A stretch of 32,279 nt of DNA from Chlorobiaceae bacterium (GTDB lineage Bacteria; Bacteroidota; Chlorobiia; Chlorobiales; Chlorobiaceae), in the NCBI GenBank assembly GCA_013334975.1, contig JAAXWL010000022.1:1-32279 (forward strand). Reading direction: 5' to 3'. Position numbers and translations under genes: made by a program. Positions 1,671 through 9,767 of the stretch are shown here, piece after piece (positions within the stretch are counted from its first letter, which is position 1; each line of letters opens with the position of its first letter). The notes under the pieces are model-generated. The model saw nothing but the letters and a program-made list of their open reading frames with translations, had not been told where the DNA came from and ran no database searches.

Positions 1671-2744
1671 ATGAGTCTCCACCAGAAGAAACATCCATTT
1701 CTCGAAAAACTGCTTGAAACAGCAAAGAGCGTCACGCTTGACAGCTCTTCAAAAGTCCTCGTCCTGAGTGATCTGCACATGGGTAACGGTGGCCGCCGTG
1801 ACGAGTTTCGTCGCAATGCGGAGATCGTCCGTTCGATGCTTCAGGACTATTATCTTCCGGGTAAGTACAGCCTGGTGCTGAACGGTGACGTTGAGGAGCT
1901 GTTCAAGTTTTCTGTCGAGAGTATTACCGGCTGCTGGGGAGATATTTACGATCTGTTCCTTGAGTTCAGGAAAAACGGTTTCTTCTGGAAGATTTACGGC
2001 AACCATGATTCCGATCTTGCCGAGGAGCCGGACTATCGCCTGAAGAGCCATCTGCTCGAATCGATCAGGTTCAACTACGGTAATGAGACGATGCTGCTGT
2101 TTCACGGCCATCAGGCATCGATTCTGCTCTGGGAGACCTATCCGTTAGTCAGCCGGGCAGTCGTGCTTTTTCTGCGCTACATCGCCAAGCCGATGGGTAT
2201 CCGGAACTTCTCCACAGCATACAACAGCCGCCGCCGGTTCGCCATTGAAAAATCGATTTATGAATTCTCGAACCAGGCCAAGATCGTCTCGATCATCGGT
2301 CATACCCACCGTCCGCTTTTCGAGTCGCTTTCGAAGGTCGATCATCTCAATTACCGGATCGAAGAGCTTTGCCGTCTCTATCCCTCCGCACACAGCCGTG
2401 AGCGGATCGCCATCAGAGAGCAGATCACCGACCTGAAGGCGATGCTTGACGCCTGTTTCACCGAAGGCAAGAGAATCGGATTGCGAAGCGGTCGGTATAA
2501 CAACATCGTCATTCCGAGCGTCTTCAACTCCGGATGTGCCATCGGCAAACGGGGCGTCACTGCTCTGGAGATTGATGGCGACCGGATCCGGCTCGTTTAC
2601 TGGTTCAAGGAGAAACAGGGTCGCCGTTTCGTCAGTGACAGAAGCAACCAGGCTGAGCAACTCGGCAACACCGGTTTTTACCGTATCGTACTCAATGAGG
2701 ATCACCTCGATTACGTCTTCTCAAGAATCCACCTGCTGGCATAG
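1671..2744 (+). CDS. calcineurin-like metallophosphoesterase (first of a tandem pair)
   Basis: This 357-residue protein has the full dimetal phosphoesterase signature: D34-L-H36, G72-D73, G110-N-H-D113, a central histidine region FHGHQ at 144-148 and G210-H-T-H213. Such enzymes cleave phosphomono- or phosphodiesters; the arrangement is loosely LpxH-like. Between the last two motifs lies a hydrophobic or amphipathic stretch (about residues 150-176) that could touch the membrane, as the insertion lid does in LpxH. About 140 residues follow the final motif, including conserved blocks shared with the neighbour (FNSGCxIGKRG; VLNEDHLDYVFSRI). The substrate is unknown. It is followed after 126 bases by a paralogue, 2871-3932. 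The ATG at 1671 is the only start that fits the paralogue alignment. Confidence 0.85.
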   Translation: MSLHQKKHPFLEKLLETAKSVTLDSSSKVLVLSDLHMGNGGRRDEFRRNAEIVRSMLQDYYLPGKYSLVLNGDVEELFKFSVESITGCWGDIYDLFLEFRKNGFFWKIYGNHDSDLAEEPDYRLKSHLLESIRFNYGNETMLLFHGHQASILLWETYPLVSRAVVLFLRYIAKPMGIRNFSTAYNSRRRFAIEKSIYEFSNQAKIVSIIGHTHRPLFESLSKVDHLNYRIEELCRLYPSAHSRERIAIREQITDLKAMLDACFTEGKRIGLRSGRYNNIVIPSVFNSGCAIGKRGVTALEIDGDRIRLVYWFKEKQGRRFVSDRSNQAEQLGNTGFYRIVLNEDHLDYVFSRIHLLA

Positions 2745-2870
2745 AAAAAGATCAGTTGGTTCAGTACGATAGTCTGAAGATAATTCACCTGATGTTTGCA
2801 ATGCGCCAGCGTTGAATGCGTTACCTTTGCTGAAGAAAATGCAGAGGTTTGTTCATTCATCCAGCGGTAC

Positions 2871-3932
2871 ATGAAGCGCTCTCATCATCTCGAAAGGCTG
2901 CTGAAAGGTTCTGAAACGATTCTGATAGACCGTGCTTCGAAAGTGGTGGTGTTCAGCGACCTGCATCTCGGGGACGGCGGACGGAATGATGAATTTCTGC
3001 ATAACGCTCCGCTGTTCAGCACCGTTCTGCGTGACCGATACCTTGCGGATGGGTTCAGCCTGGTGCTGAATGGCGATATCGAGGAGCTCTTCAAGTTTGA
3101 TCTCGCAAGCATCGAGGCTGCCTGGAGCGACCTGTATGCACTTTTCCGCTCGTTCAACCACAACGGCTTTTTCAGGAAGCTGTATGGCAATCATGATCAC
3201 GCCTTGCTCAATTGCGCGGAGTACTCTCTTGCCTCGTCACTGGCCGAATCTCTGGCTTTGCGTTTCGAGGAAAAGAGTCTTCTCTTGTTTCACGGTCACC
3301 AGGCATCGCCCTTTCTGAATGAGCCTCGCTCTTTTTTCAGTCGGACGCTTTTTTATCTTTTGCGCTACCTGGCTCGTCCGTTTGGATTTCGAAATTATCC
3401 GGTTTCCTACAGCAACAGGAGGGAGTACGCCATAGAGCGCACGGTTTACGACTTCTCCAACCGTTCGAAAGTCATTTCGATTATCGGCCATACGCATCGT
3501 CCCCTTTTTGAGTCGATGTCGAAGCCCGATTACCTGAACTACTGCCTTGAAGAGCTTTGCCGGAGCTACGTTACGGCTGACGCACGGAGACGGGGAGCGA
3601 TCGAGCATGATATCCTGGAGGTCAAGGCTGAACTTGAAAGCTGTTACCGGAACAACGCATCCAAGAGCCTGCGGAGCGGACGATACGACGCTATCGCCAT
3701 TCCGAGCATTTTTAATTCAGGGTGTTGTATCGGCAAGCGGGGTATTACCGCGATCGAGATTGAGGAGGGGATGATAAGGCTGGTCTACTGGACAAAGTCG
3801 GGCATGAAAGGGCGCTATCCCGGTGAGCGCCTCAACCAGCCAACACAGCTTGGCAAAAGCGGTATTCACCGCATCGTTCTGAACGAGGATCATCTTGATT
3901 ACGTTTTTTCAAGAATAAGATTGCTGGCGTGA
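2871..3932 (+). CDS. calcineurin-like metallophosphoesterase (second of a tandem pair)
   Basis: This 353-residue paralogue of the upstream gene carries the same dimetal motifs (FSDLHLGDGG, NGDIEELFKF, YGNHDH, LFHGHQAS, GHTHRPLFES) and the same C-terminal blocks, so the two genes come from a tandem duplication. The frame is open back to a TTG at 2796. However, the ATG at 2871 gives an N-terminus that aligns with the first copy (MKRSHHLERLL against HPFLEKLLETA), so it is preferred. The two proteins differ in many places outside the motifs, so the duplication is not recent. Substrate unknown. The downstream region, 3933-4053, contains only short GTCCAC-type repeats. Confidence 0.85.
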   Translation: MKRSHHLERLLKGSETILIDRASKVVVFSDLHLGDGGRNDEFLHNAPLFSTVLRDRYLADGFSLVLNGDIEELFKFDLASIEAAWSDLYALFRSFNHNGFFRKLYGNHDHALLNCAEYSLASSLAESLALRFEEKSLLLFHGHQASPFLNEPRSFFSRTLFYLLRYLARPFGFRNYPVSYSNRREYAIERTVYDFSNRSKVISIIGHTHRPLFESMSKPDYLNYCLEELCRSYVTADARRRGAIEHDILEVKAELESCYRNNASKSLRSGRYDAIAIPSIFNSGCCIGKRGITAIEIEEGMIRLVYWTKSGMKGRYPGERLNQPTQLGKSGIHRIVLNEDHLDYVFSRIRLLA

Positions 3933-4053: not shown

Positions 4054-4806
4054 TCATCTTTTCTCAGCCCTCAGCACTTCTTTCACCTCTTCCCAGAGCT
4101 TTCGGTAGGCTTTGGCGGCGGGGGAGTTGGGGTTGGTGGCGTTGAGGGGGGCTCTGGTGAGGCCCATTTTTTCGATATCGGAGCTGTATGGAATGGTTTG
4201 CTTCAGCATGGCGGGGTTGCTTCGAAACTCATCAGCGATCTGGCGATGCATCGATTTTTTTTTCTCTTCCATTGAGAAAAAACCGGTGATCCGTGAGGTA
4301 TCGAGGTCGTTGTCCCTGAAAAAATCGAAAAGCTGGTTGAAGGTGCGCAGAGAGAGCGTCGTAGGAATCACCGGTACCAGGATGATATCCGATGCCCTGA
4401 AAACGCTTTCAGAGAGGAGGGTAAGATTCGGCGGGCAGTCGAGAAAGAGGTAGTCGTACTCATCTTCGAGTCCTTCGAGGGTTCTGGTAAGCCTTTTTTT
4501 TGGTTTTTTGCCCTCTGAGAGTTCGATATCGAGATTACGGTACGAAAGGTCAGAGGGAAGGAGGTCGAGATGTTCGTAGTCGGTCGCCTTGATGTTTTTC
4601 GTGATCTTCTGGCTCCCCTTCAGGAATTTTTCGCTGTTGTACCTCCGGGAAGCCGTAATCCTGAAATAGAAAGAGCTGGCGCCCTGTGGATCCAGGTCGC
4701 AGATAAGTGTCGGTGAAGAGCGGGATGCCGCAAGGAACGAAAGGTTCACGGCGGCAGCCGTTTTACCGACCCCTCCCTTGATGCTGTACAGCGCTATGGT
4801 TTTCAT
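4054..4806 (-). CDS. ParA/MinD-family ATPase (no ParB alongside)
   Basis: This 250-residue ATPase has the deviant Walker A motif KGGVGKT at K10-T16, including the signature lysine K10. It also has the A' motif DLDPQG at 37-42 and a Walker B FLDCPP with D123. This places it with the ParA/Soj/McdA group, which forms ATP-dependent dimers that bind DNA and position cargo. There is no ParB or parS-like neighbour. Instead its start lies 2 bases after the stop of the CYTH-CHAD gene, so the two are almost certainly translated from one message, and the leucine-rich-repeat gene lies upstream of both. The length is typical for a small, non-plasmid ParA without an N-terminal helix-turn-helix domain. A role in positioning a polyphosphate-bound cargo is inferred from gene order only. 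A chromosomal Soj role is less likely given the context. Confidence 0.88.
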
Positions 4807-4808
4807 GC

Positions 4809-6377
4809 TCAGTCAAGTCCGGTCAGCAGTTCATTGAACAGTGTTCCGGTTTCGTCACTGTCGAATCCGGAAAAAATTACCTGGAAATGTTCCCTGACTT
4901 TTTCCCTTTTCCTGGAGAGCGAGGTGAGCAGGCCTCCCAGGGCTGCCGCCTCTCCGATGCCCCCTCTTTCAGACGGAATGGTTGCAAGCCGATGCTGCAG
5001 GAACTCCATCTGTACCGACAGATCCACGAAGGTTCCGAGGTTGTCCTGCAATGCTTTCATCTGCCGGAGTACCTCGGTCGAGGTTTTCGGCTGAAACAGG
5101 GACGAGAAGAATTCAAGCAGGTACCGGAGCTTTTTGCAGTCGATGCGCAGTTCATGAAGTTCAGCATCGCTGCTTTCACTGCCGATTCTCCTTCCGTGAA
5201 CATGCACTCTTTTCATTGCTTTTCGCAGAGCCTTTGCCGCGACTTTGGCGGTTGGCCTGGATGCCAGCGGTGCGCTTTCCTCTTCCGGAATGGTTTCATC
5301 GGCAATGAACTCCTGCCATGAAGTCATGAAGTCAAGATAGTCTCTGCCTGAAAGGTAACGACAGAATTGCTTGTGATGCAAGCGTTTCTCTGCTTCCAGA
5401 TCATTGAAAAACGGATCGAGCGCCGAACGCAGCGACAACGGCAGAAGGTCGGTATACTCTTGTCGCCGAAGAAGATAAACGTCGCTGTCGCGCAACTGGT
5501 TGGTTCGTTTGCCAAGTTCACGCAAACCTGCAAGCGCCCAGGCTGTTTTTTCAGGATCGAACACGCCGTTGAGTTGTCTGAGGATCGAGCGCCCTCTGCG
5601 TATGGCCACCCGGTAGTCGTGCAGGAATTCTGAATCGATATCCTTGCGGATGCCGGTTTCGTTGACCAGCATGATCGAGGTGGCGAACTGAAGAAGTCGC
5701 CGGATGCTCTGGTGAATAGGTGCTTCGGCGTCAAGTTGCAGATGGAGTTTCGAGGAGTAGCCCTGCCCCGGAGGCGCGGCTGCCTCCATGATGGCCATGA
5801 ATCGCTCCCTGAAGCTTGCGATGCGATAGGCGTCGACCGGTTCCGGAAGGGCCAGAAGCAACGACGAGAGAGCTTTGTGATACCCCTTGAGCGGAGTGAT
5901 GGAGTAGTAGCAGGGGAAGGAGCCCGGAGTGGTTTTGTCGGAAGAATGGATCGATTCGTAGTCGAGCGTTCCCACTGTTTTGTCGTTGTCGTCGAAGATT
6001 CTCCATGAAGAGAGGAATCGATCGACCGGGCAGCGGTTGATGAAGGCTCTGATTTCGCTGCATTGCTGAAGCTTTTTCCTGGCTTTGCCCTCGGGAAGAT
6101 CGGAGGCCAGGAAACTCGGAGGGGTCTGGGAAAGGGCAGTTTCAGCCTCAACGATGCCGTTTTCAAGTTCAATGATCGAAAGCACCCCCTTTTTTCGCAT
6201 GATCATCAATCCGTTGCGGAAAGCCTCCTCTTCGAACGTGTCGTAAAAGACTAACCGTTCTCTGCGTGTGGAAATTCTGCTGATGCTCCAGCCGTCAGGA
6301 AGGTGCTTCCCGACAGCCTGAATCATCGGAGCATCGCCGTTGATTCTGAAAAAGAGAGTTTCCGGAGGGTTGCTCAT
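4809..6377 (-). CDS. CYTH-CHAD domain protein (polyphosphate-associated)
   Basis: The protein has 522 residues from the ATG at 6377. The N-terminal 200 residues look like a divergent CYTH (triphosphate tunnel) domain: a substrate-strand-like opening, then [19 protein letters not shown], which matches the family's YYDT...L...G segment. From about residue 215 to 500 is a CHAD domain, an all-helical domain rich in conserved basic residues, with [12 protein letters not shown] and the diagnostic [21 protein letters not shown] domains bind polyphosphate and target proteins to polyphosphate granules. The frame is open to 6482, but 6377 is preferred because the upstream gene's TGA overlaps this ATG by one base (TGATG), a translational-coupling arrangement. 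It is followed 2 bases later by the ParA-like gene. The PPK1 gene lies about 1.1 kb upstream on the same strand. Confidence 0.88.
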
Positions 6378-7297
6378 CAGATGGCTGTGTTGAACGATGA
6401 AGAGAGTGACGAATGGCGCTGGAGTGCATCGGTTTGATGGCAGGCGCAACGCACCGAAGAGCCCCGCACGACTCTGATGCAACTTATGGCCGGATCAGGC
6501 TGGCGTGTAAGGCAAGATACGGCAGGATTGGCCGAACCGTCGGGTTTGCCGGAAACTTTTTTCGGGAAGCACCGGAGATTGACGAGCCGGTTGCCGGAGC
6601 AAATGAAGTCGCCCGATACCTCGATGGGGCCATGATTGAGGTTTTCAAGAAGGTTTTCAGCACAGGAGAAGCGACCGTTCACGAATTCCGGGGAACCATC
6701 GAGTGAGACCAGCAGATTCGATGAGCAGTCGAAATCGCTGTGGACCTCGTCGGGAGCGCCCTGGAGCGTGCGTAACCGGTTGTTGGAGCAGTTAAACGAT
6801 CCCGTTTCGAGAGGGCCTCCGTAGAGCGAAATGAGCTGGTTTCCCGAGCAGTTGAACACCCCTTTCACCTTACGGGGTGCTCCTGCCAGCGAGATCAGCC
6901 GGTTCGAAGAGCAGTTGAACGATCCCTTTATTCTGGTTGCAGCCCCCTTCAGGCAGGTCAGCAGATTGAATGAACAGTCGAAGTCGCCATTGAGTTGCCT
7001 GGGCCCTCCTTCGAGTGAAAGGAGGGCGTTCCCTGAACAGTTGAAGCTGCCGGTGACTCTTGGTGCGCCTTCGAGCGAAGTCAACTGGTTTCCTGAACAG
7101 TTGAATGAACCTTCAACCATTTCGGGGCACCCTTCGAGTGAGGTTAAGCCCATGTTCGAGCAGTCGATATCGCCGGTGCCATCGAGTGTACCCATGAGAG
7201 TCCTGAATGTGCGCATAGTGGAGGATCGTTGATGATTCGATGCCGATCGTGGCCGGGTGTTGACCCTGAGCGGAGTGAACCGGGCGTTGTTACGCAT
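6377..7297 (-). CDS. leucine-rich-repeat protein with a cysteine in each repeat
   Basis: The 306-residue protein contains ten consecutive repeats of 20-21 residues, roughly residues 41-250, of the form GSFNCSGNQLTSLEGAPxxV. Each repeat has a cysteine at the same position (FNCS/FDCS) and the LRR-like N-x-L-x-x-L spacing. Such repeats form a curved solenoid used for protein binding. About 27 residues precede the first MRTF and about 55 non-repeat residues follow. There is no signal peptide or transmembrane segment, so it is likely cytoplasmic. The start at 7297 is supported by an AGGAG 8-9 bases upstream. Its stop overlaps the start of the CYTH-CHAD gene, so the unit LRR, CYTH-CHAD, ParA is coupled. 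Function unknown; an adaptor or scaffold role would fit. Confidence 0.8.
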   Translation of the reverse strand: MRNNARFTPLRVNTRPRSASNHQRSSTMRTFRTLMGTLDGTGDIDCSNMGLTSLEGCPEMVEGSFNCSGNQLTSLEGAPRVTGSFNCSGNALLSLEGGPRQLNGDFDCSFNLLTCLKGAATRIKGSFNCSSNRLISLAGAPRKVKGVFNCSGNQLISLYGGPLETGSFNCSNNRLRTLQGAPDEVHSDFDCSSNLLVSLDGSPEFVNGRFSCAENLLENLNHGPIEVSGDFICSGNRLVNLRCFPKKVSGKPDGSANPAVSCLTRQPDPAISCIRVVRGSSVRCACHQTDALQRHSSLSSSFNTAI

Positions 7298-7464: not shown

Positions 7465-9645
7465 TCAGTTTATGTGTAGTCGCCTTTTGATGCCGTCCGT
7501 TTTTTTCTTCTGAAAGCTTTGTTTCATGAAGCGCTTCTGGCTGTTGACCTTTACCGCATCGTTGCTCAGGAGCGAACAGGTTCCTTCAGGGTTGAGTTTC
7601 CAGGCTTTGACGTTATCGGCAAGCTGGAGTTCAAGATCACTTTTCACCTGTTGAACCAGGGCAGGATCAAAGATGGGAAAAAGGGTCTCGACCCGTTCGT
7701 CGAGGTTTCTTGGCATCAGGTCAGCGCTGCCGAGCCAGAGTTCCGGGTGGTTTCCGTTGGCGAAAAAATAGACCCTGCTGTGTTCGAGGTACCGTCCGAT
7801 GATACTGACCACCCTGATCTTGTCACTGATTCCCTGAACGCCGGGTTTGAGGCAACAGATTCCCCGAATGATCAGATCGATGACGACACCGGCCTGGGAA
7901 GCCCGGTAAAGCGCACGGATGATTGCCGGATCGACCAGGGAGTTCATTTTCAGAATGATTCTGCCGTTATTGTTCGTGGTTGCCCATCCGGTTTCACGTT
8001 CGATCATGCCGATGATTCTCTCTCTGGTGTTGATCGGTGAGACCAGAAGATGACGATAACCGGTATGTCTGAAGTAACCAGTCAGCGCGTTGAAGAGTTC
8101 TGAAACCTCACCGGCAAGTGCCTCATCGTCTGTAAAGAAGCTGTAGTCTGTATAGAGTTTGCCGGTTGCCGGATTGTAGTTGCCCGTGCCGAGATGCAGG
8201 TAATGTTTCAGTCCCTGCGGCTCGCGACGCACCAACAGTGTAAGTTTGGCGTGGGTTTTCAGGCCAGGCAGTCCGTAAATGACATGCGCCCCGACATCTT
8301 CGAGCGCGCGTGCCCAGACGATGTTGTTCTCTTCGTCGAACCTGGCCTTGAGCTCTACCAGCACGGCCACCTGTTTGCCAAGCTCGGCGGCCTTCATGAG
8401 CGCCCTGACGATGGGGGAGTTGCTTCCGACACGGTAGAGTGTTTGCTTGATCGAGAGTACATCGGGGTCGGCAGCGGCCTTGTCGATGAAATCGACCACA
8501 GGCTGGAACGAGTCGTAAGGATGGTACAGGAGCAGATCTCGTGATCGTATGGCGCTGAAAATATCTCCGGAACTCTTCTCTTCGAAAGGATTGAAGGGGA
8601 TGAACGGTTCGTCCCTGAGTTCTGGACGTTCGACTTTCAGAAGTTCCATCAGGCAGCCGAGTCCCAGAGGGCCTTCGATTTCGTAAACGCACCGGTCATC
8701 GATTTCGAGGTTGCTGATGAGCAACTTTCTCATGAAGGCGGACATGCCGAGGCTGATGTCGAGCCTGACGACATTGCCATACCTTCGCGACCTGACCCCT
8801 TTTTCTATGGTTTGCAGAAGATCACCCGCCTCATCCTCCTCAATCTCAATGTCGGCATCACGAATGATTCGGAACGGGTGCGACTGGATGACCCTCATTT
8901 TTGGAAACAGCCTGTCGAGGTTTTGTTCGATCAGCTCCTCGATCCAGAGGAATCGAATGCCATGCTCCTGTTTTTCGATCCCGTCAATCTCGTCGAGCCT
9001 TATCAGACGGGGCAGAATATGGGGTACCTTGACCCGGGCAAACTTCAGACTGCCCTGTTCGTTGTCTTGGAGTTCGACAGCAAGATTGAGTGAAAGGTTC
9101 GACATGAACGGAAACGGATGCCCGGTATCGAAAGCCAGCGGGGTGAGCACAGGGTAGAGTTCCTGGCTGAAATAGTCATTCAGGATGCGCTGTTCCTGTT
9201 CCGGAAGTCCGGTGAAGCTGACGAAGGTGATCCCCTCCAGGGCGAGAGCGGGCACGAGGTCGCTGAACAGGCAGTTGTGTCGCTGTTGCAGTTGCTCTAT
9301 GACGGTCATCCTGATACGATCGAGTTGTTCGGTCGGGGAGAGTCCGTCAATGCTTTTTTTCTGTATTCCTGCTTCTACCTGTTTTTCGATGCCGGCGACG
9401 CGGATCATGAAGAATTCATCGAGATTGGTGCTGAAGATCGAGATGAATTTGACTCTTTCGAGCAGCGGATGCTGTCCTGGCCGTATCGCCTCTTCGAGAA
9501 CTCTCTGGTTGAATTGAAGCCAGCTCGATTCACGGTTGAAGTAAAGTGACGGATCGGTGAGGCGGTTGTCGGGTTTGATTCCGTTCAGTTCCCCGGGATG
9601 CATCGGTTTTGCTGAAGTGAGTGTATCGGAAGTGGTGTTGCCCAT
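7465..9645 (-). CDS. ppk1: polyphosphate kinase 1
   Basis: This enzyme reversibly transfers the terminal phosphate of ATP to long-chain polyphosphate. From the ATG at 9645 the protein has 726 residues, against about 690 in E. coli. The N-terminal domain opens with [19 protein letters not shown] and [15 protein letters not shown], both classic for PPK1. The C-terminal phospholipase-D-like halves carry the two catalytic histidines: H465 in [11 protein letters not shown], the autophosphorylated residue, and H622 in [11 protein letters not shown]. The frame is open to 9687, but that start would be TTG. A further ATG lies 14 codons into the protein. It is on the same strand as, and 167 bases upstream of, the LRR/CYTH-CHAD/ParA unit, which fits a polyphosphate neighbourhood. 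The upstream region is occupied by GGTATC repeats. Confidence 0.97.
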
Positions 9646-9767
9646 AGTTTCAGAGAGGAGCTGAATATCGATAAGGCGTTCGGTCAAAGCTCAAACATAG
9701 GCAATCGTTTGCGACGAAATGGTTACGAAAAGGTTAAATCGGAACCAGCCGGAACGGGGCAACCTGA

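Follow-up and report, generated by a model that had tools for sequence, protein, structure and literature searches.

Known systems for placing cytosolic cargo and polyphosphate granules

McdAB and related cargo-positioning ATPases of the ParA/MinD kind, the closest described counterparts of the locus analysed here, pair a ParA-type ATPase with a partner that associates with the cargo and is encoded alongside it, have no ParB, and act on a cytosolic body as cargo. Polyphosphate (polyP) granules are one such body, and green sulfur bacteria contain up to three of them per cell (PMC11269200). Pseudomonas aeruginosa spaces its granules with AlgP, a single histone-like tether for which no ATPase is known (PMC9239181, PMC13052382), and no ParA is known to take part there (PMC13052382). 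A 2025 review treats AlgP as the only named polyP-granule positioning factor and leaves open whether positioning consumes energy (PMC13052382). Proteins bound to granules, the phosins, include CHAD proteins such as CtCHAD of C. tepidum, YgiF of E. coli and PptA of Streptomyces; the structure of CtCHAD has been solved with polyphosphate bound (PDB 6QVA), and its polyP-binding residues (H253, R256, R260, R296, R418 and Y419) were demonstrated by mutation (PMC6537752). Clusters of ppk, parA and CHAD genes appear in papers on Acidithiobacillus, where the ParA is reported as a plasmid or chromosome partitioning protein without interpretation (PMC10892726, PMC6416229). In the literature covered, most subscription journals and all preprints aside, no paper was found that proposes ParA-driven positioning of polyP granules.

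The window, that is, the whole stretch of DNA analysed (32,279 nucleotides of a Chlorobiaceae contig), encodes a CYTH-like–CHAD protein followed by a ParA-family ATPase, which are proposed here, with a probability of roughly two in three, to form a two-gene positioning or partition module for polyP granules with CHAD as the cargo adaptor. The module shares with McdAB the features given above, and differs from it in that the proposed adaptor is a folded polyP-binding protein and not a small McdB-type protein. McdA is only a remote relative of the window ParA (39 bits, E 5e-9 by phmmer); the pair is proposed to work like McdAB, and membership in the McdAB family is not claimed. With ParABS (Soj–ParB) it has in common a Walker-type ParA with the signature lysine, and is set apart by belonging to a separate clade and by having no ParB adjacent, the ParB of the genome adjoining another ParA. 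The proposed outcome, spaced polyP granules tied to the nucleoid, is that of AlgP, and the CHAD domain with its polyP-contact residues is that of the phosins. The Acidithiobacillus folD–ppk–parA–CHAD neighbourhood resembles the locus in that ppk1, parA and CYTH-CHAD lie side by side.

Organization of the locus

The features of the locus, all on the minus strand, are as follows.

4054..4806, minus strand: ParA-family ATPase (250 aa) with no adjacent ParB; AAA_31 match; KGGVGKT, K10, D37/D39 and D123 present
4807..4808, minus strand: two-base spacer between the CHAD stop and the ParA ATG
4809..6377, minus strand: CYTH-like–CHAD protein (522 aa); residues 1-205 a degenerate CYTH fold without ExExK, residues 206-522 CHAD
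6375..6379, minus strand: TGATG overlap of the LRR stop and the CHAD start
6377..7297, minus strand: LRR protein, a Chlorobiaceae-specific accessory with nine matches to a motif of ~21 residues; the true start is probably near 7216
7465..9687, minus strand: PPK1 polyphosphate kinase, upstream, about 170 bp from the LRR start

Several claims of the preliminary description could be read directly from this layout: the translational coupling of the three genes, through the TGATG overlap and the two-base gap; the lack of a ParB next to the window's ParA; and PPK1 as a same-strand neighbour (9687-7465), which scores 856 bits against the NCBIfam model TIGR03705. The ParA scores 120 bits against AAA_31 in Pfam. 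Other neighbours in the window include a NUDIX gene and two metallophosphoesterase-like genes. The latter lie in tandem (1671-3932), each matches the other's orthologues at about 55% identity, and both are kept beside the cluster across the window's genus; they are possibly phosphate-related.

The CYTH-like–CHAD protein

The CHAD assignment is strong by sequence (195 bits to PF05235 in Pfam, cut-off 25.6), and CtCHAD (3E0S, 6QV7, 6QVA) matches the CHAD half at 1e-161, with about 78% identity in a fold alignment. On these comparisons CtCHAD is an orthologue or near-orthologue of the window CHAD. All six polyP-contact residues of CtCHAD recur in the window protein under identical numbering and are invariant in 34 Chlorobiaceae rows and in 37 cross-phylum homologues. 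The domain had been put forward as a binder of polyP, and its kinship with a protein solved in complex with polyP, together with these kept residues, bears this out.

The N-terminal half is less canonical. In an AlphaFold2 model of the protein (pLDDT 88 overall) the N-terminal domain is well modelled, and it aligns with ThTPase/TTM structures at a Foldseek probability of 1.00 and E values of about 1e-3 to 1e-2. Pfam gave no CYTH match in any of the 37 homologues, and none of the 37 has an ExExK motif near the N terminus; to judge from the model, the CYTH label is valid at fold level only, and as no homologue carries ExExK the domain is probably non-catalytic. In this the family differs from YgiF, which is an active-type CYTH enzyme. 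ParB and McdB stimulate ParA by means of a basic disordered N-terminal peptide, and no peptide of that kind was evident in the alignment of the 37 homologues.

The CHAD-linked ParA subfamily

In an alignment of 34 ParA rows the catalytic residues K10, K15 and D123 are invariant, and the switch aspartates D37 and D39 are present in over 90% of rows, one row being masked by N at that place. No NCBIfam equivalog is matched at cut-off. At the C terminus the protein ends in a short tail that varies between rows and shows no obvious membrane helix of the MinD type. This ParA does not retain the arginines found in the 'IPRNVRL' stretch of Soj, which makes its binding to the nucleoid a prediction. In the genomes outside Chlorobi, CHAD-linked ParAs score 360-418 bits against their own profile, as against 127 bits or less for the other ParAs of the same genomes. 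In a tree with the Soj-type ParAs of the window's phylum, all the CHAD-linked ParAs and one divergent relative are joined at 100/99, apart from the Soj-type proteins; the branch holding the CHAD-linked rows alone has weaker support (88/63). That this ParA arose by recent duplication of the genome's Soj was considered and is rejected on the score gap and the tree.

The divergent relative (L192:7572-9007, 276 bits) belongs to a genome without CHAD (G171), in which the place of CHAD is taken by a 206-aa protein that reads as a coiled coil plus a PAS-like region. This arrangement suggests a sister system with another adaptor.

Conservation within the Chlorobiaceae

Both CHAD and ParA were found in 79 of 86 Chlorobiaceae genomes and neither in six, a co-absence that is weaker evidence than the raw odds would indicate, because adjacent genes are lost together and many of the genomes are fragmented MAGs. 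The genomes without the pair include G017 and G094, at 99% and 98% completeness respectively, and in the remaining genome (G008) a fragment of ParA lies at the edge of a contig. The CHAD gene lies directly before the ParA gene, on the same strand, in 33 of 34 neighbourhoods inspected; among 33 measured pairs, 13 overlap by the four bases ATGA, and gaps of 1 to 15 bp separate the two genes in the others. ParA orthologues occur throughout the family at 64-82% identity, and the relatives searched elsewhere in the phylum gave ParAs of no more than about 25-36% identity. PPK1 is present in 81 of the 86 genomes, including genomes without the CHAD–ParA pair. Many Chlorobiaceae have two PPK1 paralogues, ~65% identical to each other (represented by window 7465-9687 and G000:C152:2121-4229); only one of them lies in the CHAD–ParA neighbourhood, and in G017 the second copy alone is retained.

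The LRR protein is so labelled because of nine matches to a repeat of ~21 residues, F-x-C-S-x-N-x-L-x-x-L, and of weak NCBIfam matches to LRR proteins; the product matched no Pfam model. In the window's genus LRR and PPK1 are regularly adjacent; in a second genus of the family their adjacency varies, and the LRR family is also expanded there, with up to 12 matching stretches in a single genome. Certain genomes of this second genus (G034, G066, G069, G092 and G100, among others) have ParA alone, with a retained CHAD elsewhere in an LRR–CHAD–PPK1 cluster. The LRR–CHAD–PPK1 arrangement without ParA was seen in the second genus at L066, L068, L072, L074, L075 and L082, and two genomes (G021 and G072) carry both arrangements. 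The LRR protein was considered as a core component and was discarded, being missing from other phyla and non-adjacent in most of the second genus. The preliminary description had presented the exact trio as the unit and had counted the LRR protein as part of its core, and neither view holds: with no LRR in other phyla and a non-adjacent one in many Chlorobiaceae, the conserved unit is the CHAD–ParA pair plus PPK1. In the favoured reading the LRR protein is a lineage-specific accessory, perhaps, as a guess, a scaffold at the granule surface.

Conservation beyond the Chlorobi and polyphosphate-related neighbours

When the CHAD alignment was scanned over one genome per species, the best 80 matches included 26 full-length relatives outside Chlorobi, from some ten lineages in all: Aminicenantes, KSB1, Calditrichota, Chloroflexi, Desulfobacterota/Deltaproteobacteria, Poribacteria, Dadabacteria, Deferribacteres, Gemmatimonadota, Latescibacterota and others (the labels are the records' own, and many of the records are MAGs). 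At 25 of these 26 loci a ParA from a single subfamily follows CHAD on the same strand, in most cases no more than about 200 bp away and never beyond 503 bp; the 26th locus lies near a contig end. Since order and strand are the same here, among the best 80 matches, and in all but one of the Chlorobiaceae neighbourhoods, the CHAD–ParA order is not due to chance.

The neighbours of the foreign pairs are likewise recurrent. PPK1 lies near the pair on the same strand at 15 of the 26 foreign loci (best 80 matches), and the 106 flanking proteins at the foreign loci include PPK2 (9), Ppx/GppA (8), CYTH (9), SixA-like histidine phosphatases (14) and NUDIX (5). The gene directly after ParA often encodes a stand-alone CYTH enzyme that is intact (E-I-E-R-K), or else a phosphatase of the SixA-like kind. 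Examples of a stand-alone CYTH with intact ExExK in this position come from several phyla (L144, L149, L152, L155, L160, L161 and L165), and a SixA-like phosphatase takes the same place at L143, L167 and L168. The conserved neighbourhood for which a search had been advised, CHAD with a ParA lacking ParB, is found in many phyla amid genes of polyP metabolism.

Two phyla were sampled in greater number, with the seed genomes included in the counts. In one, ParA occurs in five of 118 genomes, four times directly after a full-length CHAD; one of the five full-length CHADs and both short CHADs have no ParA. In the other, all 14 ParAs found among 82 genomes lie directly downstream of CHAD; among its 21 full-length CHADs, 14 have ParA, three are cut by contig ends and four have none, and the four short CHADs are all without ParA. 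By these counts the presence of ParA predicts that of CHAD more strictly than the reverse, which is what one would expect of a cargo binder (CHAD) with a dedicated motor (ParA). Some full-length CHADs have no ParA, and CHAD can therefore work without it.

Proposed mechanism and alternatives

In the proposed mechanism, PPK1 would make the polyP cargo and the CHAD half would bind polyP on the granule, as is known for the C. tepidum domain. The ParA-type ATPase would dimerise on ATP and bind the nucleoid, as its family membership suggests, and the CHAD protein would contact ParA, perhaps by way of the CYTH-like domain (probably non-catalytic), and trigger ATP hydrolysis. By such triggered hydrolysis granules would follow a ParA gradient, stay spaced and be shared between daughter cells. 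Both the positioning mechanism and the choice of CHAD, rather than another protein, as the ParA-stimulating adaptor are what we infer from these data. As a weak test, a natural in-frame read-through fusion of CHAD and ParA (L042) was modelled with AlphaFold2 and gave a pTM of 0.57 with no confident interface. Other points that weigh against the proposal are the lack of an evident basic N-terminal peptide in CHAD, the Soj arginines that this ParA does not retain, the full-length CHADs that occur without it, and the spacing of granules by AlgP in P. aeruginosa.

The same gene neighbourhoods could be expected of a metabolic complex, packed as they are with PPK1, PPK2, PPX, CYTH and SixA-like genes, and ParA might then be a regulatory ATPase of polyP synthesis or granule assembly that acts by recruiting or gating PPK1/CHAD, or by setting how granules nucleate and how large they become, with no movement of granules along the nucleoid. 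Relatives such as BcsQ, itself a weak match, do serve synthesis complexes. However, the protein keeps the full set of ParA/Soj-type catalytic motifs, its membership in BcsQ fails (57 bits against a cutoff of 158), and full-length CHADs exist without this ParA; a regulatory role is considered possible though unlikely. A further reading is that of a conventional partition ATPase with a ParB-like partner or centromere that escaped notice, its adjacency to CHAD being historical; this would agree with membership in the AAA_31/ParA family. Against it, the seven genomes in which ParB was found have one each, in every case adjoining another ParA, of the Soj type (the contig that carries Soj in the window's genome stops right behind that gene, and the ParB count comes from these seven); the linkage to CHAD recurs in some ten lineages (best 80 matches), and the distribution is patchy (5/118 and 14/82 genomes), unlike that of a housekeeping gene. 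We hold this explanation to be very improbable.

It could also be argued that the granule is a regulator and not a cargo, ParA–CHAD tying it to DNA for chromosome segregation or cell-cycle exit, as granule placement in Caulobacter depends on chromosome segregation and polyP affects cell-cycle exit in Pseudomonas (PMC13052382, PMC9239181). However, these genomes already possess Soj–ParB as a distinct pair, and it persists in G017, from which both CHAD and this ParA are missing; such a role appears distinctly doubtful. The preliminary description had named two grounds for giving up the idea of a granule-positioning system, namely a gene order without conservation or a ParB that partners this ParA; both were looked for, the order proved conserved, and in the seven genomes where a ParB was found it lies beside the Soj-type ParA.

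Significance

The two-gene module for polyP granules, with CHAD as adaptor, is the reading favoured here. In its broader form, which seems moderately probable, ATP-driven partition of polyP granules would be widespread and would rely on a ParA subfamily dedicated to it, in which a folded polyP-binding protein takes the part of ParB, an inorganic polymer being segregated in the manner of plasmids and carboxysomes. PolyP granules are very common in bacteria, and with a dedicated ParA encoded next to a granule-binding protein of solved structure, the question whether positioning consumes energy becomes directly testable. If the proposal is true, the ParA family would gain a new cargo and a new, folded type of adaptor.
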